26,665 bases of DNA from a virus: positions 1-26,665 of the IMG/VR virus record IMGVR_UViG_3300042197_002134; one strand, written 5' to 3'. The translations under genes were made by a program, and so were the position numbers. Below, one piece after another: positions 5,322-24,538 of the stretch (its first letter is position 1; each line of letters begins with the position of its first letter). Below the pieces are notes generated by a model. It was not told the origin of the DNA and searched no databases. It saw nothing but the letters and a program-made list of their open reading frames with translations.

Positions 5322-8300
5322 TTAATTTAATGTTACTTTACCATTGAAGGTTTGTTTATCTTGATTTAAGTTTTGGTTGGAATAAAGATCTTTTAATTTT
5401 TTTGTTCTACCACTAACATCGTCAGTAGCAGGATAAAGGTAATTACAAGTTTTAACCGTATTGTCAGGAACTTTCCAAGTTGTTGCTGTTTTGAAGAAAT
5501 CAGTTTCTTGTATTTTTTTGGTGAATTGGTCTTTGAATCCGTTTTGTAATTGTGTGTAATTATCTCTTAAACTTTCTGACTTTAGTCTTATACCCTCGAC
5601 CATTTGTGTGTTCTGTTTTATTTCGGGACCATTAGATAAATCATTAATAAATGTTGTTAAAAATTCAGGATTTGTAAATAATGGGGTGCAAAGTATATAA
5701 AATCTATTTGCCTCACAATCATTAATTGTGAATGGTGAAAATCCATTAACTTCTAATCTACAGTTTCCAGCATTTTCTACAGTAGAATTATTTTCTTTAT
5801 ATAAATCTTTTGTCATTTCAAAAGTTTGAAGTTCGGTTTCAAAATTATTTATGGTTGAAACAACGCTGTAAGTCGCATCACTTGTATAAACATCAAAAAT
5901 CCCACCTTGGGCGTTTTCACCAAAAAAAGTATCACCACTAAGTTGATATACAAGTGGTTCATTTGATGGACTCATATTTCCATCGGTTTGCGAACATATT
6001 ACATCTAATTGTCTAAAAATATAGTTCAGCTCATTTTGTATATTGGTTATATTTGTGGTGTTATTTAATATAACATCCAAAATCGCATTTTGTCTTTGAC
6101 TTACAATATTCGATAACTTTTCTTGAAGCTCCCTTATTTGTTTTGCAGTTGGGTCAAACTCTGGACTATTTAAGTATGAAGTAAAAGGATCTTTTTTATT
6201 TTCTATATCTTTTTTTACTTCGATCACAAGTTTCTCAACTAACTCCTGATATTTATTTGTTTTTCCATAAATTTTACCTTCTTTCTTTTGACTTGTATAT
6301 TCCGATAATAATCCTTTGGTATAATTTCTATTTTTATTTGCAATTTGTAAGGCACCATACCCGTAATCACTATTGATTTTGTATAATGAATCATAGTAAG
6401 TTTTAAAATATTGTTGGAGTTTTTCACTTAATGATGCGTATAAACCTGAGTAATCCATAACTGTTGTATCAACAATAGTTCCGATTGTAGAATCTCCTCG
6501 TCTCGGTTGAACGCTGTTAATTGCCTGTATTTGTTGTTCTCCAACTGGAGGTAATCCTCCTGTTATCTTTTCGACAACATATTTGTCCAATTTACTTGTA
6601 TCTTCTGTCGGAGTTGCTCTTTCATCATACACTTCTGTATTTGCATAATAATTGAAAGAAAGTGCGTTTTGTAATTCTTGAACAGGTTCTTTAAGCCCCA
6701 TCCCTCCGATTATATTAAATGACAGTGTAATTTTTGCCAACATGGGTTGAACTCCAATACCTTCAGGATTAATGTCTAACCCCTCAAATGTAATTCCCAA
6801 ACTATTAGGTATTATTTTCGTATGGAAAAAATCTCCAATTCTTAAAACTAAAACCGGTGGAGCTCCAAATGATGTGTTAAGTGCGTCATTATATTTAGGT
6901 CTACCGTCAGGTCCAATAACAGGAATTGTTTGACCTGGTCTTGTGCATTGATGAAGAAAGTTTAATCTAGCATTTAAACCTTCAGGAGTCATCGAGTGAA
7001 ACGCCGGGTTGAAAAACTTTATACGATCTTTTATCGTATCATAGACCATAGGATCTGTTTCTTTAATAACTTGGAAATAATCGCATTCAGTGAACAAATT
7101 TCTAAGTATTTTTTTGGATATTCCGTCTTTAATTTTTTGTTCTACGGTAAGTTGGGGCTCGGGTTTAACGCTTTGAGTTGGTTCTGTTTGGATGTTTTGG
7201 ACGTTATCTACGTTTGCGTTTGTACTTCCGCTTGGATTTGTAACCACGGTAGGAGGTGTTGGTTGTTCTATTTTGGATGCAATAATTTTTGTTATATACA
7301 CTCTCCTACAAGCCATGGCAGGAATACTAAAAACTTGTGAAACTGGTTGGACTGGATTTCCTGCCACATCTAAATTTTTAATGTCTTGAGTACAATTCAC
7401 TTCTGCAGTTAAAAAATCACCACCACTTGCTGTGGTAACTGTGGCATCATTTGGATCGGTTGTTCCTGAAGCCGCTGCTCTTGATTTTGGTATTGATATT
7501 GTTTCACCTTTAGCAGTCAAATTTACTTTGAAATTACCACTACTAATATAGGTGCTTATTGCAGTTCCATCTTTCAAAACTTGTTTCGAAAACCATTGCT
7601 CCACAGAATTATTTCTTCTTTGTGATAATTTGTCATTATAAGAAACAGATGCAGTCGGTGATGCGGACCCTACCATTTGAATTTCAACTTTACCTTTATT
7701 TGTTAATATATCGTCAATCTGTGGTAATAATTTGTCTTTAATAGCACTAAAATTACCTTCTACAATTTCAGTAAAAAAGTTCGAAACGTTTGCTCCTGAA
7801 AAAATAGTTGGGCTCCCTTCAGGTTGCACTTTAGCAGGTGCTTTTTGTTGGTATATAGTTTTATTTCCAATATAACCATTATACCAATAATCAAATGGTT
7901 GGCTCGCAACCACTGCCGTTGAGTTAGTGCATTCGGGACAATCGTTGTCAAAATAAAATCCTAATCCTTCAAATTCATTTAATGGAACATCAACAGTTGC
8001 AGGAGTACCAGCAGTAGTGGTTCCATTATTAGTTTGTCCTCCTGGTGTAAAAACTCCTTCTGCATTACCTGGTTTATCAGTTTCAATATTAGCAGGAATG
8101 TTCTGTAAAACCTGTATTTGTTCTTCTGTTGTTAATCGTGGGTTATTTAATATTTGTTGATATGTAAATAAATCTTTTGTTGGGATTGTATTAAATTTAA
8201 TACCTAACTCATATAAATCATATTTAACACAACCGGCATAGAAAGAATCAACAATACTTTGAACTCTTTCTTTTCCAGCGCCTTTTAATTGTTTTTCAAT

Positions 8301-10409
8301 TATTGTGTTCATCATAGCAGGATTATCGACAATAATCGTCCAATTTAATGAACCTGATCTTGCAGTATTTTTATATGTATATATTGGTTCTGGTCTTCCA
8401 ATAAATGTTGTTGTTGTAAAATCAGGTTTAGAATCATCAGAAAATTTTAAATCGTATGGTGGAAACCACATTATCCTACCTCCGTTTGGACCTCTTTCAC
8501 AAACAGGCAAGTCATCATAAGTAAATCCTGGTCTATCAGAAGTTCTCCAAGCTAAGTTTTCTAATGAGAACATATATTTTTTAACTTTACCATCAACAAT
8601 ATTTGTCGATCCAGGATTTCTTAATGGTGCAATATTCAAATTATACGTGTTGTCAAATATTGAATAGTCAAATCTTCTTCCTGATTTTGTAATACCATCT
8701 GTCTTTTGTAAATCGGCAAATGTATAATACGGAGTATCTTTTTGAAATATTCTACAATATTCGAGACCCGCCTGTGTTCCATCGGCTTGATTTACATATG
8801 ATAAGACTTGAGATCCTTTAGTTATTTCTTTATATCCATCGTTAAAGACTTTAGAGACTTGGTTAATAGCGGTTCCGACGTGTTTTAGTCTTGTTTGTCC
8901 TTGTACTTGGTCGGCTGAATCAACAAGTCTTTGTGTTTCGTATAAAATTGATCCAGGTCTAAACTCAATATCGGTTGATTGATATTGTAGATAATCCGCA
9001 GAAATTTGATTAAACTCGTCGTCCAAACTACCAGCTCCACCGCCCGCTGTGGCTCTAAACCCCGCATTTGGTTTATATTTAGGTGAAGTCCATATTAATT
9101 GACCTGAAGTTCCACCTCCATCAGTATATGATCTTCCTTTTAAACCAAACTTAATTGTCTCTTCATTTCCTTCATATAATATTCCTAACTCTTGTGGTCC
9201 ATATACAATACTTTGTTGTTGAACCCCAAATTGGTTTACTGGAAGTTGATTCGGAGGTCCGTCAATTTGAGCGGGTTCAGAATTCTGACTACCAACGTAA
9301 TATCCCGATGATTGTGCTTTATCTTGGTCAAATAACCTATTTATTGCGGCCGAGGCTCCCGCAATTAAACCACCAATTAATCCTCTGTTATATGCTGGTC
9401 TGTATAAATTATAATCTAATGCTGAAAATAAAGCGGATCGTGTTCCGTTACCTGTATTTGCAACAAATATTTCAGATGGTGTTCTATACTTGTTGATTAT
9501 AGGTGCTAATAAACCACCAGTTAGATTATTTACAACACCTAAAGCCGCTTCAGTTTGTGGTTTGTTTATAGGGTTGTCATCATCAAAATAATCTCCTGGT
9601 ATAAACGAAACGGGAAAGTAAGTTCCTGTCAATCTATTTGCCAATGAAACTGCTGCTAACACAGGATTTTCTGGTACCGTAATTCTCCAATCACGTATGA
9701 AAAAAGGTTGTTGTCCTGTTGCTAATAAACTAGCGGAAAATGGATCACTTATTGTGTCCAAATTTATAACACCAATTGTTGCTTGTTGTATTTCTTGAGA
9801 AACTCTTTCATTAAACGCAAATTTTAATTGCGATGCGCCTATTTGAGCTAAGAAAGTGTCAGATGATAGAGGCCCGTTAGATCCAATTGGATCGTCCTGA
9901 AATACTATATTAAACGTAGGGTAGGATGAATAATTATAATATCCAGGATCCCAATATGGCTGATAAATGTTTCCTGCATTTTGTATATCAGTTATTATAA
10001 TTAAATCTTTATAACCACCGCTTGGACCCCACTTATTTGTAACATAAGCAGATTCAATATAAAATTCATTAACAACATCTAAATTAGTCCCTTGTCTTGG
10101 ATAATAAGGTCCTTGATTTGTTCCTTCAGGATTGTTTGTTGACGCAACACTATTCAACCCGATAGGACTACCAAATCCACCCTCAGGTCCGTATTCATTA
10201 AGGGGGTATAGGTCAGTTGCAAATAGATTAGTGGAGACATAGTTGTTTGGTGAATCGACCACATTTGAAACCGTTAGGTTTGTTTCATAATTAATTGGAT
10301 TTCCTGGTGAAGCGTAACTTCCAGGAACGTTGTATGCTGGTAAGTTTCTTACCAACAATTGTTTTCTGAAAGATTCAGAATTACCAAAAGACAAAAAACT
10401 TTCAGCCAT
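5322..10409 (-). CDS. Giant baseplate/tail protein with an OmpA-like domain
   Basis: A complete 1695-residue protein in the baseplate operon, between the tape measure and gp53 genes. Roughly residues 875-1045 look like an OmpA C-terminal (peptidoglycan-associating) domain: a strand with QMVGSASPTAS, then SYNDKLSQRRNNSVEQWF, which matches the family's N-x-x-LS-x-x-R-x-x-x-V helix. A later section (about residues 1190-1290) is beta rich and looks like a virion assembly domain, for example VLVLRIGDFFHTKIIPNSLG. The last 350 residues are predicted helical and rich in Gln, Asn and Lys. No signal peptide or enzyme motif was seen. A T4 homologue is not obvious. OmpA-like domains bind peptidoglycan in cell envelope proteins; here one could anchor the baseplate to the wall after contraction, which is inference. 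A TATTTATA motif lies just upstream. Confidence 0.8.
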   Translation of the reverse strand: MAESFLSFGNSESFRKQLLVRNLPAYNVPGSYASPGNPINYETNLTVSNVVDSPNNYVSTNLFATDLYPLNEYGPEGGFGSPIGLNSVASTNNPEGTNQGPYYPRQGTNLDVVNEFYIESAYVTNKWGPSGGYKDLIIITDIQNAGNIYQPYWDPGYYNYSSYPTFNIVFQDDPIGSNGPLSSDTFLAQIGASQLKFAFNERVSQEIQQATIGVINLDTISDPFSASLLATGQQPFFIRDWRITVPENPVLAAVSLANRLTGTYFPVSFIPGDYFDDDNPINKPQTEAALGVVNNLTGGLLAPIINKYRTPSEIFVANTGNGTRSALFSALDYNLYRPAYNRGLIGGLIAGASAAINRLFDQDKAQSSGYYVGSQNSEPAQIDGPPNQLPVNQFGVQQQSIVYGPQELGILYEGNEETIKFGLKGRSYTDGGGTSGQLIWTSPKYKPNAGFRATAGGGAGSLDDEFNQISADYLQYQSTDIEFRPGSILYETQRLVDSADQVQGQTRLKHVGTAINQVSKVFNDGYKEITKGSQVLSYVNQADGTQAGLEYCRIFQKDTPYYTFADLQKTDGITKSGRRFDYSIFDNTYNLNIAPLRNPGSTNIVDGKVKKYMFSLENLAWRTSDRPGFTYDDLPVCERGPNGGRIMWFPPYDLKFSDDSKPDFTTTTFIGRPEPIYTYKNTARSGSLNWTIIVDNPAMMNTIIEKQLKGAGKERVQSIVDSFYAGCVKYDLYELGIKFNTIPTKDLFTYQQILNNPRLTTEEQIQVLQNIPANIETDKPGNAEGVFTPGGQTNNGTTTAGTPATVDVPLNEFEGLGFYFDNDCPECTNSTAVVASQPFDYWYNGYIGNKTIYQQKAPAKVQPEGSPTIFSGANVSNFFTEIVEGNFSAIKDKLLPQIDDILTNKGKVEIQMVGSASPTASVSYNDKLSQRRNNSVEQWFSKQVLKDGTAISTYISSGNFKVNLTAKGETISIPKSRAAASGTTDPNDATVTTASGGDFLTAEVNCTQDIKNLDVAGNPVQPVSQVFSIPAMACRRVYITKIIASKIEQPTPPTVVTNPSGSTNANVDNVQNIQTEPTQSVKPEPQLTVEQKIKDGISKKILRNLFTECDYFQVIKETDPMVYDTIKDRIKFFNPAFHSMTPEGLNARLNFLHQCTRPGQTIPVIGPDGRPKYNDALNTSFGAPPVLVLRIGDFFHTKIIPNSLGITFEGLDINPEGIGVQPMLAKITLSFNIIGGMGLKEPVQELQNALSFNYYANTEVYDERATPTEDTSKLDKYVVEKITGGLPPVGEQQIQAINSVQPRRGDSTIGTIVDTTVMDYSGLYASLSEKLQQYFKTYYDSLYKINSDYGYGALQIANKNRNYTKGLLSEYTSQKKEGKIYGKTNKYQELVEKLVIEVKKDIENKKDPFTSYLNSPEFDPTAKQIRELQEKLSNIVSQRQNAILDVILNNTTNITNIQNELNYIFRQLDVICSQTDGNMSPSNEPLVYQLSGDTFFGENAQGGIFDVYTSDATYSVVSTINNFETELQTFEMTKDLYKENNSTVENAGNCRLEVNGFSPFTINDCEANRFYILCTPLFTNPEFLTTFINDLSNGPEIKQNTQMVEGIRLKSESLRDNYTQLQNGFKDQFTKKIQETDFFKTATTWKVPDNTVKTCNYLYPATDDVSGRTKKLKDLYSNQNLNQDKQTFNGKVTLN

Positions 10410-10417
10410 TTTTATTT

Positions 10418-10425
10418 TATAAATA
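10418..10425 (-). promoter_or_regulatory. TATTTATA motif upstream of the 1695-aa baseplate gene
   Basis: Read on the minus strand, this is TATTTATA, 8 bases before the ATG at 10409. The same octamer recurs ahead of most transcription units in the window on both strands, so it is a candidate phage promoter core. Confidence 0.5.
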
Positions 10426-10460: not shown

Positions 10461-12266
10461 CTATGTGTTCTTTCCTCCTGTTGATGCGGAGACAGTTCCT
10501 CCGGCTAATATCTTATTGAGTTGAGTGGCAAATGTGGGATCCGTCAACATTGCTTGTTTTATTTTTTCAATATCGGCCGTGGTAAGGTTAGCACCTGTAA
10601 CATTTAAACCAATATTGATGTTTGAATCTGCCTTTGCCTCGACTTTTACAGGTTTCGAATAGGCGGTTTGTATGTCTTGAACTATTTTTGTTTGAGTTTC
10701 GTTTACTGACGCTTTGAATCTTGTTTCGAAATCTCCTAATGTTTTAAATATATTTTGTCCTAATTCTTGAGTTGATTTTGCCATCATTTCTTTATCTCCC
10801 GTTAACCCACCCTGAACTATTCCTGATACAGGTTGATAAATTGATTCTTGAGCATTTCTTTGTTGTTTTGTGTTTCCAATCACCTCAGAGGTGCTTTTTG
10901 CAATATTCTTATATGCGTTTGATACTTGACCATAAAATTTTGATAATGTCGGTGTAGTTGCCTTAGCAAACTTTGTGGCCACTACTCCACTTTCTAATAA
11001 ACTTTTAATTTGTGTTGTTTCATCTAACTGGTTTTGTGCTAGTTCCTCAATACTTTTTGATGATTCTTCATTTGCCTTTTGTAACTCTTTTATATCATCA
11101 GGGGTAAGTTCCTCTACCTTTTTTTCTTCAATTTTTCCTGTTTCTGAATCTTTTACTTTGATTGTTGCCACACCATCTTTCATTTGAGCCATAGAGGCAA
11201 TTAACTCTTTAGTCTCTTGATTTCCACCTACAATGTCGGGCATTTTAATTTGTTTCAATTTCATTTCGAAATCAGCAGATTTTAAAGCCATTTTAGAAAA
11301 CTCTTCTGCGGTCATCCCTACCGCACTTGCGACTTCCCTCATTCTACGTTTTGCACCAGGTAAAATTTCCATCTTTCCTGTTTTTTCGTTAAAGGTTGTA
11401 AACTCCTGACCTAATTTAACCATTTCCTTTTGTAGGGCTTCAGGATCATTTTGTGCCATATCCATTGCCCTTAACGGATCTAATAACCCCGATGAAGTTA
11501 CTCCAAGTCTTTGAAGTGCCGCTGACATGTCTATTGCTTTTTCAGGACTCATTAAGTCCTCAGCGGTTTGGAAAACGTGCTCCATAGATATTCCTAATCT
11601 TTCCGATGTTGCTGCCATTTTGGCTAATCCTACCACTCCGTTTTCGAAGTTATATAAGTTCATTTTACTTAAGCTACTAACAACTTCTCCTGCAACCCCT
11701 TTTACGGATACACCCACACTTCTAGCATAATCAGTAACTTTTTTCATTTCTTCACCTACATCATATATTGATACACCAACACCATGGAAGTTTTTTGCTA
11801 AAGTTCCTACACTTTGGTCGGTTACTTGAGCAGCGGCCGTTACCTCAACAATAGCCTCTTCTGTGAGACTTGCCGTCGTTCCCAATCCTTCCATAATATT
11901 TGTCAAATTTGTCGTGATTTGTGATTCACTTAATCCCATTTTAATTAGTTCAGGACCCGCATTTGCTATAGTATCTTTGAACTCATCCATTCTGTTTTTG
12001 GCTAAACCAAATGTTGATTGTATTTTAGTTGCGTATTCATCCATTGCCTTGAAAGCATCGGAGTCTAATGGATTCAAGGCGTCTACCAAGGAACTAAAAG
12101 TATTATTAATTTCTCCAGTAATTGCCTCCATGTTTAATGAAAAGGCGTTGAACGTTGTACTTGTAGAATTAGCCATGTCCGAAAATATCTTAGTTTGTTT
12201 TGCAGACCAATCAGCATTCGCATTTGTCGTTTCCTGTTGTAGTCTTAGGTATTCTTCATCGTCCAT
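10461..12266 (-). CDS. Tail tape measure protein, gp29-like
   Basis: A 601-residue, largely helical protein placed directly after the gp26-like chaperone gene, the standard position for a tape measure protein. Residues about 155-265 resemble the conserved TMP segment: repeated Gly and Ala-rich helices such as KNFHGVGVSIYDVGEEM and SERLGISMEHVFQTAEDL. Long Lys/Glu/Gln-rich helices follow, and the C-terminus is Gly/Ala rich. There are no transmembrane runs or lysozyme motifs. The length is close to T4 gp29 (590 residues), so by the usual rule of about 1.5 angstroms per residue the tail would be around 90 nm, similar to T4. The assignment rests on context, helical composition and the TMP-like segment. 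Another hub protein is the alternative. Confidence 0.7.
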   Translation of the reverse strand: MDDEEYLRLQQETTNANADWSAKQTKIFSDMANSTSTTFNAFSLNMEAITGEINNTFSSLVDALNPLDSDAFKAMDEYATKIQSTFGLAKNRMDEFKDTIANAGPELIKMGLSESQITTNLTNIMEGLGTTASLTEEAIVEVTAAAQVTDQSVGTLAKNFHGVGVSIYDVGEEMKKVTDYARSVGVSVKGVAGEVVSSLSKMNLYNFENGVVGLAKMAATSERLGISMEHVFQTAEDLMSPEKAIDMSAALQRLGVTSSGLLDPLRAMDMAQNDPEALQKEMVKLGQEFTTFNEKTGKMEILPGAKRRMREVASAVGMTAEEFSKMALKSADFEMKLKQIKMPDIVGGNQETKELIASMAQMKDGVATIKVKDSETGKIEEKKVEELTPDDIKELQKANEESSKSIEELAQNQLDETTQIKSLLESGVVATKFAKATTPTLSKFYGQVSNAYKNIAKSTSEVIGNTKQQRNAQESIYQPVSGIVQGGLTGDKEMMAKSTQELGQNIFKTLGDFETRFKASVNETQTKIVQDIQTAYSKPVKVEAKADSNINIGLNVTGANLTTADIEKIKQAMLTDPTFATQLNKILAGGTVSASTGGKNT

Positions 12267-12277
12267 AGTTTTTACTT

Positions 12278-12285
12278 TATAAATA
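12278..12285 (-). promoter_or_regulatory. TATTTATA motif upstream of the tape measure gene
   Basis: The minus-strand octamer TATTTATA sits 11 bases before the tape measure ATG at 12266, in the 31-base gap after the chaperone extension frame. It is one of the recurring gene-start motifs in this window. Confidence 0.5.
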
Positions 12286-12297
12286 CCGTTTTACAAA

Positions 12298-12480
12298 TTA
12301 TTTTTTGTTTTCTTCAACGTATTTATTAACCAAATATTTTCTTACGTAAGTAGGCATATTCAAAAACTCAGAATACTGTGTTCTAAATATTCTAGAAAAG
12401 TAATAGAACTCGTCTAATATTATAGTTTTATACTGATAAGAAAGGCCGAAAAAACTCCACCCCAAAAGTAATGTCGACCA
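12298..12480 (-). CDS. Overlapping tail-assembly chaperone extension, probably made by frameshifting
   Basis: A 60-codon frame open from 12480 (just after an in-frame stop) to a TAA at 12298-12300, overlapping the end of the gp26-like gene in the +1 frame. It lacks an ATG near its beginning; the first ATG is deep inside (codon MPTYVRK) and only a poor TTG occurs earlier. Its protein is strongly coding-like: ILDEFYYFSRIFRTQYSE, then NMPTYVRKYLVNKYVEEN. This resembles the short helical proteins (T4 gp51-like or lambda T-like) made next to tape measure genes. The most economical reading is a fusion: 250 residues of the gp26-like protein, a +1 or -2 slip at the six-T run at 12449-12454, then 49 more residues. 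This is inferred from sequence only. Confidence 0.65.
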   Translation of the reverse strand, partial: WSTLLLGWSFFGLSYQYKTIILDEFYYFSRIFRTQYSEFLNMPTYVRKYLVNKYVEENKK

Positions 12481-13198
12481 TTACTCTTTCTCCTGACGGG
12501 GCGATTACTTCTCGTGATAGATCTAATCTAGGTTCGTTGTCTAATAAAAATCTTCTGATATATTTAGAATCGCCGATTGGCATTTGTTGAATGAATGTTG
12601 AGATTTTAGATTTATCTTTATCTCCATCCAACTCAACAATATGATATAATAGTTTTGTAGTAATGGAAGGTGCGGTTCGTTCAGACGGATATGATTGAAT
12701 TATTCTTGTAATTTCTACTTTATCACCACTATTTAAAAATTTCACTTTAACTTTTTTTCCCGATACAGGTAGTGTTGTTTCTAACAGACCTTCGTTATTG
12801 GGGATAACATTAGTTTTTTTAATGTTTAACTCGTCCAACTGAATTGTCACGGTAAATTTTTCGTCATTTGCTGGGTCTATCGCCGTAATTTTATATTCAG
12901 GTCCAAAAGATGTGTTTCTTAAAAAAAGAAGTATTGCTTCAACATCACCATCTAATAATTCTTCAGGTCTGAGATCTCTTTCATATAACTTGTTTCTAAG
13001 TAAAGGAAGAATGATACTTTCTTGAATACTTTTTTTAAAATCAGCCTCTGCAATGATGTTTTCATCCATCGCTGTTAGATATCCAACTTTGACTGATTTC
13101 TTTTTCGATTTGTAAAAAATTCCCCCTGATGGTAATTGGACCACGTCATGTGGTAAATTAAATTCTGCTTGTCCAGCAGCGTATACGTCTTGTTCCAT
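12428..13198 (-). CDS. gp26-like baseplate hub / tail-assembly chaperone protein
   Basis: A 256-residue protein resembling the T4 base plate protein family (gp26/gp51 group). It has the characteristic opening LPSGGIFYKSKKKSVKVGYLTAMDE near residues 22-48, where a Pro-Ser-Gly-Gly turn is followed by strands and then a TAMDEN segment. Next comes a helical region with LRNKLYERDLRPEELLDGD and a beta-rich middle (about 100-190). In related phages this family's gene lies just before the tape measure and acts as its chaperone or as a hub subunit. The arrangement here is the same, and an overlapping +1 frame probably extends it. The ATG is only two bases past a TATTTTATA variant of the recurring motif, and a terminator separates it from the tube gene upstream. 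Confidence 0.75.
   Translation of the reverse strand: MEQDVYAAGQAEFNLPHDVVQLPSGGIFYKSKKKSVKVGYLTAMDENIIAEADFKKSIQESIILPLLRNKLYERDLRPEELLDGDVEAILLFLRNTSFGPEYKITAIDPANDEKFTVTIQLDELNIKKTNVIPNNEGLLETTLPVSGKKVKVKFLNSGDKVEITRIIQSYPSERTAPSITTKLLYHIVELDGDKDKSKISTFIQQMPIGDSKYIRRFLLDNEPRLDLSREVIAPSGERVMVDITFGVEFFRPFLSV
12446..12458 (-). promoter_or_regulatory. Candidate ribosomal frameshift site (GGAG-TTT-TTT-CGG)
   Basis: Read on the minus strand, the zero frame runs GTG GAG TTT TTT CGG. A Phe tRNA on the second TTT can slip forward one base onto TTC while the A site holds CGG, a codon expected to be rare in such AT-rich DNA. The GGAG lies 3 bases upstream of that TTT, the same close spacing of a Shine-Dalgarno-like element that stimulates +1 shifting in release factor 2 mRNA. 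A -2 slip on the homopolymer, as in phage Mu tail genes (six G then CGA), reaches the same frame. Confidence 0.5.
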
Positions 13199-13802: not shown

Positions 13803-13810
13803 TATAAATA
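13803..13810 (-). promoter_or_regulatory. TATTTATA motif upstream of the tail tube gene
   Basis: The minus-strand TATTTATA lies 33 bases before the tube ATG, with an A/T-only leader between them. Same recurring motif as at the other gene starts. Confidence 0.5.
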
Positions 13811-14714: not shown

Positions 14715-14734
14715 AATAAATATCCATATAAATA
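14715..14734 (-). promoter_or_regulatory. Paired TATTTAT motifs upstream of the HAD-family gene
   Basis: On the minus strand TATTTATA (14734 to 14727) is followed by TATTTATT (14722 to 14715), with the ATG at 14711. The first copy is at a spacing similar to other genes; the second is very close to the start. Confidence 0.45.
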
Positions 14735-14783: not shown

Positions 14784-17700
14784 TTAAATATTCTCAAAAG
14801 AAGCTCCAGTCGGAGTGATATAGAATGTTATATCAATAAACTCGAGTGCTCTTGTAGGTTTAATATAAATCTTACCTGTTAATTGGTTTCTGTCAATATC
14901 TTCAGGGTCAGATGAAACCGTTACTCTAAAGTCGTAGAGACCTCGGTCTCTTCTAATCGCATCTAAGATTGGATTGACAGCGTTTAAGAAGTCTTGTCTT
15001 ACTTGAGCGTCGTTTTGTTCAAACAATAATCTTACAGATACTGCTGAAATCAACTTACGTGCTTGAAGTAACAATCTTCTAACGTTGATTCTATCAAGTG
15101 CCGACTCTCTTACTTGTAATGTTTTATTACCCCAAATTACGGTTCCTACGTCAGAGAAGGTCGCAATTGGGTTAATTCTACCAACATAAAGAATGTCTCT
15201 ATCTTCTTGTGTCAACTTCTTACGAGCTTTTATACAATTAACAATACCACGAGTGTAACCCGCCGCCGCGAACCATGGAAATGCAATGTTATCTGTAAGT
15301 GCTAAGTTTCTTGTTACCTCAGCTGTCGGTGGGATATAAATTTGAGTGTTATTTACACTATCTCTTGTTAATACCCACGGATAGTAAGTAGCCGTATAGT
15401 TAGAGTCGATTCCTGTGTTATCCAAATTATCAACCGCCTCAGTAGGATAGATGAACAAATCCGTTCCTGAGTTTGCGGGTGAAAACAAATCAGCATCAGG
15501 TGTTGTACAAACATATAATGAGTCCGCTCTATTGAATTCTATCATCTGAACTGCGTCCTCAACAAGATTACTATTATTTACATAATCAATACCCGGTGTT
15601 ACAAAAACGTTAATGTTTGTAGCTTCAGGATTTGCGAACGTTTGTTGTCCTAATAGGTATGCGTAGTAGTCAGTGTTTGCAAAGTTTTGAGTTCCGTCAC
15701 CTAAAGAAATTTCTTTAAATGCTCCCCAACCTTTAGCGTTAGGGTATCTTGTTGATGGACATGCCCCATTTAAATAACCTGCTCTACCAATTTGGAATCT
15801 GTCTTCGTTTGTTCTCCATTCTCTATATATATCCCAACCATCAAAACCACCCTGAACTAAGAAAGTGAATTTACGAGCGAATAATCTGTAGTATGCGTTT
15901 GTTGGAAGTTCTGGTTCTGTAATGAAAGAAGAATTACCACAAATAAATCTTGGGTCACCGCTTGTTGAAAACTCAGGTCCGATTGTCAAACCACTTGCAT
16001 TTATATCCATGTGGAAACCTGTTGATCTGTAGTTGAACGGAAGACCATCAATATCACAGGAATTAACTGGATTTCTTTTACCTACGTATTCAAAGAATGC
16101 TGGATCCCATCCATATGAATTTGAAATTCCTAAGTAAGTTCTTCTAACATTATCCCCTGGACTAACAAGTGCGTTGTCGTTTCCTGAGGACAATCCAAAT
16201 GGTGGGTTGTAGATTACTTCACCAGGGAAGTCATATTTACCTTTAATAATTGGGAACGGTGATTGTGCTCCTGCGTAATTTCTAAAGTTAAATCCGTTGA
16301 AACCACATGGAAGAGCGTCTATTGGAGCATCTTCCGACATTTCAACCATAACATATTTAGAGTTCAACATGTATTCACCATCCAAAGTTCCTATTTTATT
16401 TGCGATAAAGTTATTTTGACCTGGATCCATGGTGCAATTTGTGAATTTTTCTAAAACTACAGGATTTGCATCAGTATCAAAATAATTACGAATTAATACG
16501 TCGAATGTTAGATTACTATACGTTTGATTGATGATCGATATTTTTATCAAAGTATTCGCACCATCACCATCAGATATGGTGTAGAACCTAAATAAGTCAT
16601 ATACCTTATTACCTCTTAATTCAGATACAACAAATGGTGAATATGGTGTTTGCCATTTATCTAAATACCAACCGATTGAATTGGGATCTCCACTTTGAGC
16701 AGAATCTAAAGAAATTAAATTGGGATTCAAACCTTTGATATAACCTTTTCTCCAAGAGTAATTTAACCATGATTGGAAATTTTCTTCGGCAAAAACTGGA
16801 ACCTCAAGTCTTGGTTTTTGGAAGTTAGTTATACCGAATACTTTTGACCAATACTCAGGATCGTTTTGAGTAAATGAAGTTTCAAAGAAATAAGATGTTC
16901 CAAACTTATCTACAACATTTACACCAAATGTGGAATAAGGATTTTTCAATACAGCTGAATATTGACCTGTCATATTAAGAGTAACATCGGTGATACCAGT
17001 TACTGAATATGCTGGGTTTGTTGCATTTACATAAGTCGCAACACCTCTTGATCTAAGGGTTCCTACAACTACATTATCATAGTTGGTATAAGATGTACCA
17101 GTATAGTAATACAATTTGATATACAAATTACCCGAATAACAATTAACCGGTAATGTTGTTGTTGTAGTTGTGCTTGTAGTCGGAACAGGTGTAACACAAG
17201 GATTAGTTGTTGTAGTAGTAGTCGATGAACTAGTTGATGTTGTAGTTGTAATTGGGGTTAATGTTAAACCTGATACAAAACTAAAGAATGAATAACCACT
17301 ATAGTTCGTGTTTCCTGTTGTATTAAATAATGCGTAATACCAAGCGTCGTTTAAAGGAGATTCTAAATTAGTTTCATCCAAAGATACTGAAGGAACGCCT
17401 AAAACGTTAGTTGAAGCCGTCCAACCTGCGTTAGTAATAGTATCATAATCCATCGTTGGAATAGAACCCCAATATGAAATAAACTCATCTTCTGCAACAA
17501 ATGGGTTAGAACTTGTAATTACATCAAAGATCAAACTTCTAATATCATCGTCTAATGTTGATGTGCCCCCGTTGAATTGTTCGTATTGTGAATACAATAT
17601 GTCTTGGATCTCATCAGGAAATGAAGATAAGTAAGAAATACTTGAGATGTCATTATTACATCCTGTAAAAGGTATAGCGTATACCTCATCATAATAATCC

Positions 17701-18119
17701 ACACAAATTGTCTCACAAGTCGCCGTGCTTGTTACAGAACTCAAACACCATAATCCTACCGTAGATGGATTTACGTTGGCTACGGTTGTTACGGACCAAG
17801 ATGGACCCGCATCATAACCTGACAAACCTAAAATTCTTGTTACAAATAATTGGTTTGATTGTTGTAAATATGCCTTAGCAATATAAGCCGCCTCATATTT
17901 AGGTATTGTTGTGTTAATAAATTTTTCAGGAGATGTTCCCCCGAATACTGTTTGAAATTCATCAAAATTTCTAATAAAGATCGGCTCAAATGCCGGACCT
18001 ATCAACGTTTCACCAACGATGCCCAGTGTTGTTACACCGACACTTTGAGCGACAAAACTTAAGTCAACTTCAGAGGTATAAACACCTGGAGAAACAAAAA
18101 CTTTACTATTAGTTGCCAT
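14784..18119 (-). CDS. gp18: Contractile tail sheath protein, gp18-like, with large insertions
   Basis: A 1111-residue sheath protein, far longer than T4 gp18 (659). The N-terminus has the usual sheath opening (FVSPGVYTSEVDLSF, then GIVGETLIGPAFEPIFIRN). The C-terminal 180 residues hold the conserved sheath core: WFAAAGYTRGIVN, RINPIATFSDVGTVIWGNKT, RRLLLQARKLISAVSVRLLF and a final beta strand IDITFYITPTG. Between about residues 105 and 430 there is extra sequence, split by a Thr/Ser-rich linker at 288-323. This insertion probably forms surface domains facing outward on the tail. In infection the sheath contracts and drives the tube through the envelope. The gene has a TATTTATA motif upstream and a strong terminator downstream. 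Confidence 0.95.
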   Translation of the reverse strand: MATNSKVFVSPGVYTSEVDLSFVAQSVGVTTLGIVGETLIGPAFEPIFIRNFDEFQTVFGGTSPEKFINTTIPKYEAAYIAKAYLQQSNQLFVTRILGLSGYDAGPSWSVTTVANVNPSTVGLWCLSSVTSTATCETICVDYYDEVYAIPFTGCNNDISSISYLSSFPDEIQDILYSQYEQFNGGTSTLDDDIRSLIFDVITSSNPFVAEDEFISYWGSIPTMDYDTITNAGWTASTNVLGVPSVSLDETNLESPLNDAWYYALFNTTGNTNYSGYSFFSFVSGLTLTPITTTTSTSSSTTTTTTNPCVTPVPTTSTTTTTTLPVNCYSGNLYIKLYYYTGTSYTNYDNVVVGTLRSRGVATYVNATNPAYSVTGITDVTLNMTGQYSAVLKNPYSTFGVNVVDKFGTSYFFETSFTQNDPEYWSKVFGITNFQKPRLEVPVFAEENFQSWLNYSWRKGYIKGLNPNLISLDSAQSGDPNSIGWYLDKWQTPYSPFVVSELRGNKVYDLFRFYTISDGDGANTLIKISIINQTYSNLTFDVLIRNYFDTDANPVVLEKFTNCTMDPGQNNFIANKIGTLDGEYMLNSKYVMVEMSEDAPIDALPCGFNGFNFRNYAGAQSPFPIIKGKYDFPGEVIYNPPFGLSSGNDNALVSPGDNVRRTYLGISNSYGWDPAFFEYVGKRNPVNSCDIDGLPFNYRSTGFHMDINASGLTIGPEFSTSGDPRFICGNSSFITEPELPTNAYYRLFARKFTFLVQGGFDGWDIYREWRTNEDRFQIGRAGYLNGACPSTRYPNAKGWGAFKEISLGDGTQNFANTDYYAYLLGQQTFANPEATNINVFVTPGIDYVNNSNLVEDAVQMIEFNRADSLYVCTTPDADLFSPANSGTDLFIYPTEAVDNLDNTGIDSNYTATYYPWVLTRDSVNNTQIYIPPTAEVTRNLALTDNIAFPWFAAAGYTRGIVNCIKARKKLTQEDRDILYVGRINPIATFSDVGTVIWGNKTLQVRESALDRINVRRLLLQARKLISAVSVRLLFEQNDAQVRQDFLNAVNPILDAIRRDRGLYDFRVTVSSDPEDIDRNQLTGKIYIKPTRALEFIDITFYITPTGASFENI
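17151..17258 (-). repeat. Thr/Ser-rich low-complexity linker inside the sheath gene
   Basis: Codes for sheath residues 288-323, two runs of mostly threonine separated by a short NPCVTPVP segment. It divides inserted domains in the sheath protein. Such linkers are common in secreted and surface proteins, and here likely form an exposed flexible tether. Simple triplet repeats also make it prone to length change. Confidence 0.85.
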
Positions 18120-22387: not shown

Positions 22388-24538
22388 ATGAAAGTTTACA
22401 TTAAATACGAATCTCCCGAATTAAAAAAAAACAAAAATTTTGTAGAAAAATTTATCGATCTGCTACAAAAAGAATATCCTTTGAAAACAAATTTGAAAAT
22501 AATGTTTTTGAATGATAGAAATGGAGAAATGTCTACAGGAAGTAGAAGGGGGGACAATTTGATTAAAGTGCTGGCCAAAGGTAGATTGAACAGAGATATC
22601 ATGAGAACTTTGGCACATGAATGGGTTCATGAATACCAAATGACAATTTTAAAAAGAAAACAAGGCCCAAATATTGGGGGAGTCAATGAAGATGAGGCGA
22701 ACGCATTTGCAGGTCAAATTGTTAAAAAATTTGAAGAATCGTATCCCGAACTTGAATCAATAATGTATGAATCAAAATCAATTACAGGAAAATTAAATCT
22801 TTTGACGGAACAAATATTATTGACTGAAAAAAATTTAATTAAGGATAACCTGATTTTAGAAATGAAAAAAATTGGTATTGAAAAATTACCATATTCATAT
22901 TCATCTCTGAAAAAATTTATTGATACAAAAACTATGGATATTCACTACAACAAACATTACAAAGGTTATGTTAATAAGTTGAATAAGTCTTTAAAAAACA
23001 AAGACGGTGACATGGAATTAGAAGAAATTATAAAATCTATAAGTAGATTCGACACTAAGATCAGAAACAATGCTGGCGGTGCGTTCAATCATGCGTTGTT
23101 TTGGAAAATGTTATCACCAAAAAAACAAATACCCAAAGGAGAGATATACAAACAAATAAAAAAAGATTTCGGAAATATTAAAAAAATGAAAGACGAATTT
23201 AATCAAGCCGCCAAAGATCGGTTTGGTTCTGGATGGGCTTGGTTATATCTTTCTAAAGATGGTAAATTAAAAATAATGTCCACCCCAAATCAAGATAATC
23301 CTTTAATGAATGTTGTAAAAAAAGGTGGTTTTCCACTTTTAGGTTTAGATGTTTGGGAACACGCTTATTATTTGAAATACCAAAATAAGAGAGACGAATA
23401 TATAAATAATTTTTGGAATGTTGTGAATTGGGAGTTTGTTGAGGAGTTATATTTGTCAAAAACTAAAAAAGATAAAAAAACTATTAAAGAAGATACTTCC
23501 GATAAAGAAATTATCAATGAGATTAGTAAAACTTTTGCATTCCCATATACCGCAAAAGGATTAAGAGAACTTATGCATTCCCAATATGTTGGTTGTTACA
23601 ATAAACAATATAAGGATGGTTGTTTAGGTAGAATAGAAACAAAAAAATGCACAACTGAATTAGGTATTTTGGGTGGTGATTATTCTGAAAAAAAATTCGG
23701 AGGAACCAGTCAGTGGTCCATTATCAATAGATTCGATACCAACAGTCGTGTAAAAAAAGAAATTTACAACATTTGGTTAGAAGAAACTGAAGGATCAACC
23801 GACTTTAAAACATGGATTAAAGACCACGCATCTGATTTATTTTCAAACGATGGAATGTATTTGGATCGATTGGTAGAACCAAATATAGGAACAATTGAGA
23901 TTGGCAAAGAGAATGAAAGTTACGCAAAACAAATAATTAGACAAATATATAATCTCAGTCCTGATCAAGAAGGTATATCGTATGAATTATACGAACATTG
24001 TTCGGGGGATATTAACGATAGAAAAAAAGGACAAGATATTGTTTTAATTATAAAAGGGGGGGACACAATATATTTTCAAGTTAAACCATTTTTAAATCAA
24101 AATAACGACATTGAATTTTTTGATGGAGGAGATAGAGGATACTACTTTAAGGTCTCATCATGGCATAGACAAACAAAATATAAAGGAGAAAATGTCGATG
24201 TAATTTTATATGTAGACAGAACAGAAGACAAATATATAATGTTTAGAAATGATCATAATAAAATGTTAACAGTTAGTAATCCAAGAACACAACCACCTTT
24301 TCATATCTTCTATTATGAAATGCCACTACAGAGTAACTTTAAAATTCCTTTACAAAAAGAAATTCCTAAAACACCTGTTAAAAAGAGTATTGCCAAAGAT
24401 GTAAAAAAAGAAATTGAATTTTATAAAGAAAGAATTAATTATTTTACTAACAAAATAAAAGAACTTGGAGGTGAAAATCAAGATATAAATGAAATGATTA
24501 ATTTTTATAAAGAAGAGTTGTCTAAGACAATTATATAG
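22388..24538 (+). CDS. Multidomain protein: HExxH metallopeptidase-like, Mn-type superoxide dismutase, nuclease-like domain
   Basis: A 716-residue fusion. Residues 1-130 hold a zinc peptidase-like domain with HEWVH at 77-81 and a downstream EDEANAFA (E103 a likely third ligand). Residues 135-160 form a joint with LTE, LTE and ILE in close succession. Residues 163-357 are a full iron/manganese superoxide dismutase domain: LPYSY opening, ligands H186, H235, D321 and H325, and gateway Y194. Gly231 and Gln302 in NQDNPLM point to the manganese type. A second joint (360-380) contains IKE and INE. Residues 380-650 include D550 and Q564-V-K566 with E510 upstream, the layout of a PD-(D/E)xK nuclease. 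A coiled coil ends the protein. Superoxide dismutase converts superoxide to peroxide and oxygen. The (L/I)-x-E joints suggest cleavage into separate capsid-packaged parts, which is inference. Confidence 0.9.
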   Translation: MKVYIKYESPELKKNKNFVEKFIDLLQKEYPLKTNLKIMFLNDRNGEMSTGSRRGDNLIKVLAKGRLNRDIMRTLAHEWVHEYQMTILKRKQGPNIGGVNEDEANAFAGQIVKKFEESYPELESIMYESKSITGKLNLLTEQILLTEKNLIKDNLILEMKKIGIEKLPYSYSSLKKFIDTKTMDIHYNKHYKGYVNKLNKSLKNKDGDMELEEIIKSISRFDTKIRNNAGGAFNHALFWKMLSPKKQIPKGEIYKQIKKDFGNIKKMKDEFNQAAKDRFGSGWAWLYLSKDGKLKIMSTPNQDNPLMNVVKKGGFPLLGLDVWEHAYYLKYQNKRDEYINNFWNVVNWEFVEELYLSKTKKDKKTIKEDTSDKEIINEISKTFAFPYTAKGLRELMHSQYVGCYNKQYKDGCLGRIETKKCTTELGILGGDYSEKKFGGTSQWSIINRFDTNSRVKKEIYNIWLEETEGSTDFKTWIKDHASDLFSNDGMYLDRLVEPNIGTIEIGKENESYAKQIIRQIYNLSPDQEGISYELYEHCSGDINDRKKGQDIVLIIKGGDTIYFQVKPFLNQNNDIEFFDGGDRGYYFKVSSWHRQTKYKGENVDVILYVDRTEDKYIMFRNDHNKMLTVSNPRTQPPFHIFYYEMPLQSNFKIPLQKEIPKTPVKKSIAKDVKKEIEFYKERINYFTNKIKELGGENQDINEMINFYKEELSKTII

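Follow-up and report, generated by a model that had tools for sequence, protein, structure and literature searches.

In this study, we provide comparative sequence evidence that programmed +1 frameshifting very probably produces a long tail assembly chaperone, TAC-NC, from a gp26-like gene in a 26.7-kb viral contig, all 26,665 nucleotides of which were analysed (hereafter, the window). The gene is predicted to be the tail assembly chaperone (TAC) gene of a T4-like phage, and we infer its chaperone function. A programmed +1 shift in a gene of this kind was the central claim of an original prediction made from the DNA letters, and the comparison with relatives strongly supports it. The general phenomenon of TAC frameshifting in T4-like phages is already known, and the locus is not an isolated curiosity. 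Frameshifting is reportedly conserved in several T4-like groups, and T4 itself is said to use genes 26 and 51. On the present reading, a large group of T4-like phages, most of them uncultured, would also use TAC frameshifting, there in the rarer +1 direction.

Gene order and the second reading frame

On the minus strand, the tail sheath gene is followed by a 276-aa ORF, the tail tube gene, a 256-aa gp26-like ORF and a 601-aa ORF. The features to which the text refers are as follows.

14784-18119, minus strand: tail sheath, 1111 aa
13281-13769, minus strand: tail tube gene (gp19-like), upstream neighbour; PHROG 4542 tail tube, E 8e-21
12428-13198, minus strand: gp26-like gene, putative short tail assembly chaperone (TAC-N), 256 aa; ORF, Pfam, PHROG and Foldseek
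12457-12504, minus strand: predicted RNA hairpin upstream of the shift site, GCCCC/GGGGU helix plus AGUAAUG/CAUUACU stem
12298-12480, minus strand: +1-frame stop-to-stop ORF, 60 codons, overlapping the 3' end of the gp26-like gene
12455-12463, minus strand: GGGGTGGAG, Shine-Dalgarno-like element or 3' arm of the hairpin; GGG invariant in 42/42, last G replaced by A in 26/42
12446-12454, minus strand: predicted shift site TTT TTT CGG; TTTTTTCG in 42/42 unique junctions
12301-12447, minus strand: predicted post-shift coding part (TAC-C), 49 aa, GLSYQYK...EENKK; open in all relatives, omega 0.097
12428-12430, minus strand: 0-frame TAA stop, terminating the short form
10461-12266, minus strand: probable tape measure protein gene, 601 aa; position as in Flavobacterium phage immuto (L074), SP-15 (L076) and the relative L077

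The 256-aa ORF matches Pfam PF12322 T4_baseplate (34.5 bits, cut-off 24.5) and PHROG 150 baseplate hub (E 1e-12), in agreement with the gp26-like identity first proposed for it. It sits between the tail tube gene and the position-assigned tape measure gene, as is expected of a TAC. The claim that it lies directly before the tape measure gene stands as far as position is concerned, since the 601-aa ORF, which starts 32 nt past the +1-frame stop, is placed as in relatives. However, Pfam and PHROG gave no convincing family match by sequence for this ORF, and 'tape measure' is therefore a positional label.

The 60-codon frame overlaps the 3' end of the gp26-like gene as originally described and is +1 relative to it. 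The usual -1 shift therefore cannot reach it, as had been argued; the -1 frame is closed 8 nt past the gp26-like stop, and no downstream domain of the -1 type (lambda G/GT, T_TTT_TTC) was found there. Joining the two frames by a +1 shift reproduced the predicted fusion of 299 aa.

The protein is encoded in 67 IMG/VR loci at 59-100% identity (the window clade), and 63 IMG/VR loci carry the full junction, 42 of them unique. The +1 frame is open, with no stop, in all 42 unique junctions. Past the gp26 stop, none of 31 unique sequences has a stop in the +1 frame and all 31 have stops in the other two sense frames. Over the same stretch omega (pN/pS) is 0.097 for the +1 frame, and it is 0.23 in the gene body. 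The second frame is thus a real, constrained coding sequence, being open throughout and under purifying selection, with the other sense frames broken. Moreover, synonymous codon identity rises from approximately 0.57 in the gene body to approximately 0.87 over the last 25 codons. At first reading the arrangement was seen in a single contig, and a pseudogene, a sequencing error or a chance overlap might have accounted for it. The same arrangement is present, with purifying selection, in more than 140 independent contigs, and this conservation refutes such a reading, whose probability we regard as negligible.

Relatives among the T4-like phages

Behind the gp26-like gene, Flavobacterium phage immuto, Microcystis phage Mel-JY01 (L070) and 79 of the 80 IMG/VR relatives retrieved (the remaining one being incomplete) also have the C-domain in the +1 frame. 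This immuto-like clade (81 loci, 52 unique junctions) carries the site TTT [CT]T[TA] TGG CCT (TTT YTW TGG CCT), and at least 599 immuto-like stretches are present in IMG/VR. The +1 relation is likewise found in RM378, SP-15, LIS04, GXN1 and LR756508. A -1 frame behind T_TTT_TTC is found in cyanophage S-RIM50, the KVP40-like phi-ST2 and the jumbo phages Atu_ph07 and PA5oct. Profile comparison of the long forms aligned the two +1 clades at 99.8% (E 8e-28). On the gp26 tree, +1 cases cluster together, and explaining the -1 cases takes at least two changes on well-supported branches, a pattern to be read with caution in view of long branches. In the distant relative LR756511 (L072), the C-domain ORF has its own ATG at the gp26-like stop. 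This ATG, near position 5769, overlaps the stop (TAATGGATG) and may represent an escape from frameshifting through coupled initiation.

The original prediction had named a separate gene with its own start in related phages as evidence that would count against it. LR756511 is one such case, and a distant one. The statement that the short frame lacks a good start also holds, with the refinement that an in-frame TTG is present at -11 in 41 of 42 window-clade sequences. A small gene of its own in the second frame, started internally or by coupling to the gp26 stop, is in our view very unlikely, even though this TTG, the ATG-started version in LR756511 and the separate small genes annotated in Mel-JY01, immuto and SP-15 speak in its favour. 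In the window no ATG or GTG start precedes the C-domain, and one member of the window clade (L064) lacks the TTG at -11. Start positions are not conserved within the immuto-like clade (33/65 at -11); 8/65 sequences lack a start codon of any kind before +45, and several members have a +1 stop 3-11 nt ahead of the site. A separate gene would, in addition, leave the invariant TTTTTTCG and the rare CGG unexplained.

It is described in papers citing Vladimirov, Gautam and Davidson (Virology 2022) that gp26 and gp51 are the short and long TACs, encoded separately in T4. According to two of these citing papers, a short gene and a fused long gene occur together in some T4-like phages (PMC10885494), and T4-like TAC-N genes are known to contain polyT -1 sites (PMC12846349). 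T4 gp26 terminates at GLKEFFELL, and T4 gp51 runs on into a C-terminal segment. Profile comparison connected the window-clade C-domain with that of the immuto-like clade (84.5%, E 7e-6), the latter with the -1 lineages (87.5%), and the -1 lineages with the C-terminal part of T4 gp51 (87.5%, E 4e-6). Neither the window-clade protein nor its C-domain matched T4 gp51 significantly by BLASTP or hhalign, and the C-domain of the window appears to be linked to gp51 through intermediates only.

An AlphaFold2 model of the fusion, built from 45 aligned sequences, has a pLDDT of 82.6 and places helices of the C-domain at 253-271, 275-279 and 283-297, at lower confidence. In Foldseek searches the model matched gp26-type baseplate hub proteins in BFVD; no relatives of the fusion or of gp51 were found in the PDB (Foldseek for the fusion model).

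The small 'hypothetical protein' genes annotated after the gp26-like genes of immuto (L074 3848-3958), SP-15 (L076 3812-3931) and Mel-JY01 (L070 5740-5976) are probably pieces of the C-domain of frameshifted chaperones, and their annotation would have to be corrected to C-terminal parts of fusions. Phage PQ819873 (L071), labelled a Streptococcus agalactiae phage and originating from pond water, has a T4-like tail module close to that of Bacillus phage SP-15; its host label may merit a second look.

The predicted shift site and predicted upstream hairpin

The junction at 12460-12428 (minus strand) reads GTG GAG TTT TTT CGG CCT TTC TTA TCA GTA TAA. Across window-clade junctions the 0-frame stop follows the first T of the site by 18 or 24 nt. 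CGG occurs once in the 4101 codons of six window genes, precisely at the shift site, which confirms the presumption that this Arg codon is rare. Among the 42 unique junctions the codon is CGG in 40 and CGC in 2, and these two codons account for 0 of 419 Arg codons elsewhere in the same genes of the clade. A +1 stop stands so close to the TTT in some relatives that only 2 or 8 nt of open frame precede it (L087; RM378 and nine others); the remaining stretch contains no start codon, and the shift is confined to approximately 30 nt. The conserved UUU_C slip codon and the rare CGN codon in the A site place the site in the UUU_CGN +1 class, which is defined by influenza PA-X (PMC3498833). In PA-X the sole Phe isoacceptor, with a GAA anticodon, favours UUC over UUU, and the +1 direction was established by product sequencing (PMC3498833).

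In the mechanism that we propose, most ribosomes would terminate at the TAA at 12428-12430 and yield the 256-aa TAC-N. A minority would pause at GAG UUU UUU CGG because the phage almost never uses CGG. With CGG waiting in the A site, the P-site peptidyl-tRNA-Phe (anticodon GAA) may slip one base forward from UUU to UUC. GGC would then enter the A site, and translation would continue into the 299-aa TAC-NC, with a 49-aa helical C-terminal domain and the predicted junction peptide VMVDITFGVEFFGLSYQYK, which has two F. Refolding of a hairpin behind the ribosome would probably aid the forward step, taking the role of a Shine-Dalgarno (SD) duplex. The short and long forms might both chaperone the tape measure protein, and, as T4-like TACs, they would be expected to bind it and to be missing from virions.

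It had also been suggested that the six-T run could serve a Mu-like -2 shift, in which tRNA-Phe slips back two bases and adds an extra Phe (VEFFFGLS), giving the junction VMVDITFGVEFFFGLSYQYK with three F. A -2 shift leads to the same frame, and T6 is invariant in the window clade. However, the run is missing in many relatives, and those with TTT CTT TGG, TTT CTA TGG, TTC TTT CGT or AAC TTT CTA keep the same frame relation with no run on which to slip back, so that +1 is favoured over -2. The conserved rare A-site codon and the 5' hairpin also suit forward shifting, and we regard the -2 route as unlikely. Of the two features that relatives might have been expected to conserve, the frame is kept in both +1 clades and the T run within the window clade.

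Slippage of RNA polymerase on T6 would give mRNAs one base short and the same fusion, and the conservation of a homopolymer tract in the window clade would be in keeping with it. We find it highly improbable, as six T are few for polymerase slippage, C interrupts 29 of the 52 unique immuto-clade sites and leaves them with at most three T in a row, and the codon bias in the A site would be left unexplained.

GGAG, TTT, TTT and CGG are all present in the overlap, as originally listed, but GGAG is GGAA in 26 of 42 junctions, and GGGGUGGA(A/G) stands directly before UUU UUU, with CGG rather than a stop in the A site. The proposal that the upstream element acts like the SD of RF2 has become doubtful: SD-like sequences are present at 2 of 16 window gene starts, GGAG is variable, and the conserved GGGGUG is able to pair with an invariant upstream GCCCC. 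Pairing of GGGGUG with the anti-SD is still possible (-9.2 kcal/mol), and SD action as the main stimulator is weakened.

The invariant rare codons GCC CCG (-48 to -43) and GGG (-9 to -7) are able to pair and enclose the AGUAAUG/CAUUACU stem, such that 2-5 nt separate the end of the predicted helix from the E-site codon UUU. The window segment from -60 to +3 folds at -19.3 kcal/mol, and none of 1000 synonymous-codon randomisations (mean -10.4) was as stable; by the same procedure z is approximately -2 to -4 in most members of the window clade and weaker in some. Pairing is possible in 94.7% of alignment cells (41-54% in slid controls), with mismatches in some members. At four pairs both bases differ in a few sequences, and covariation is uninformative for the GCCCC/GGGG core because the core never varies. 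Dinucleotide shuffles of a longer segment gave a z of only -1.69, for which reason support for the hairpin is moderate. In the immuto-like clade the hairpin is weak (mean z -1.25). No 3' stimulatory structure was detected; the downstream fold did not surpass those of shuffled sequences (z -0.29).

In vitro, 70S ribosomes shift more in the +1 direction and less in the -1 direction when a hairpin lies directly against the E site, where it acts like an internal SD (PMC6321510). Flavobacterium johnsoniae makes little use of SD sequences, and its frameshifting at prfB is poor (PMC12421855). A Bacteroidota host for the present phage would fit the 2/16 rate of SD and the cultured relative from Flavobacterium. 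We put forward, as a tentative proposal held at less than even confidence, a broader picture that includes a natural +1 shift on bacterial ribosomes driven by hairpin refolding behind the ribosome, which replaces the SD duplex in hosts that hardly use SD, together with a chaperone gene whose arrangement has switched among -1, +1, separate genes and duplication in T4-like phages. The locus may offer a natural test case of whether an upstream hairpin can replace an SD sequence in +1 shifting.

Known frameshift systems and other features of the window

The gene resembles other T4-like TACs in its gp26-family N-domain (PF12322), in a short form that ends just past an EFF-like motif, in a predicted long form with a small helical C-domain, and in its place beside the tape measure gene. 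It differs in that the long form would require +1, whereas the signals in the citing accounts are -1 polyT sites and T4 uses two genes, one short and one fused. The T_TTT_TTC sites of S-RIM50, phi-ST2, PA5oct and Atu_ph07 share the gene, the location at its 3' end and the downstream domain; they work in the -1 direction, on a heptamer without a CGG or TGG A-site codon.

The type of site is best known from influenza A PA-X (UCC_UUU_CGU), with which it shares the +1 direction, a UUU_C slip by a GAA tRNA-Phe and a host-rare CGN A-site codon. PA-X belongs to a eukaryotic virus, 80S ribosomes and an unrelated gene, and the accessible part of its description reports no hairpin. prfB (RF2) is similar in its +1 shift, pyrimidine slip codon, purine-rich upstream element and slow A-site codon. 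In contrast to prfB, the A-site codon here is the sense codon CGG and not a stop, the slip codon is UUU and not CUU (immuto relatives have CUU_UGG), and the upstream element probably forms one arm of a hairpin and not an SD. Frameshifting next to the tape measure gene likewise produces a short and a long chaperone in lambda (gpG/gpGT) and in phage tails generally (Xu 2004), but the lambda shift is -1; the +1 shifts of Listeria phage PSA are in capsid and tail-shaft genes. In the literature accessible to us, in which Vladimirov 2022 is represented through citing papers, we found no description of the +1 direction, of UUU_CGG or YUW_UGG sites, or of a 5' hairpin in these genes.

Rfam and tRNA scans of the window gave no matches, and a scan for Bacteroidota promoters found no excess (4 against 2.68 expected). 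The motif TATTTATA is present in 11 copies where 4.3 are expected, frequently a short distance 5' of genes (for example at 10418-10425, 12278-12285, 13803-13810 and 14727-14734, minus strand), and is similar to late promoters of the T4 type; the stretch separating the +1-frame stop from the tape measure gene contains one copy. The 1111-aa tail sheath contains a large insertion with Ser/Thr-rich runs, and its C-terminal sheath domain is intact. The gene at 5322-10409 (minus strand) encodes a probable baseplate protein of 1695 aa with an OmpA-like-looking stretch (LSQRRNNSVEQWF...) and no Pfam match. Lastly, the 716-aa protein encoded at 22388-24538 (plus strand) has a complete Fe/Mn superoxide dismutase in its middle (Sod_Fe_N E 1e-20, Sod_Fe_C E 7e-42), flanked by other sequence, which is unusual for a phage structural neighbourhood.
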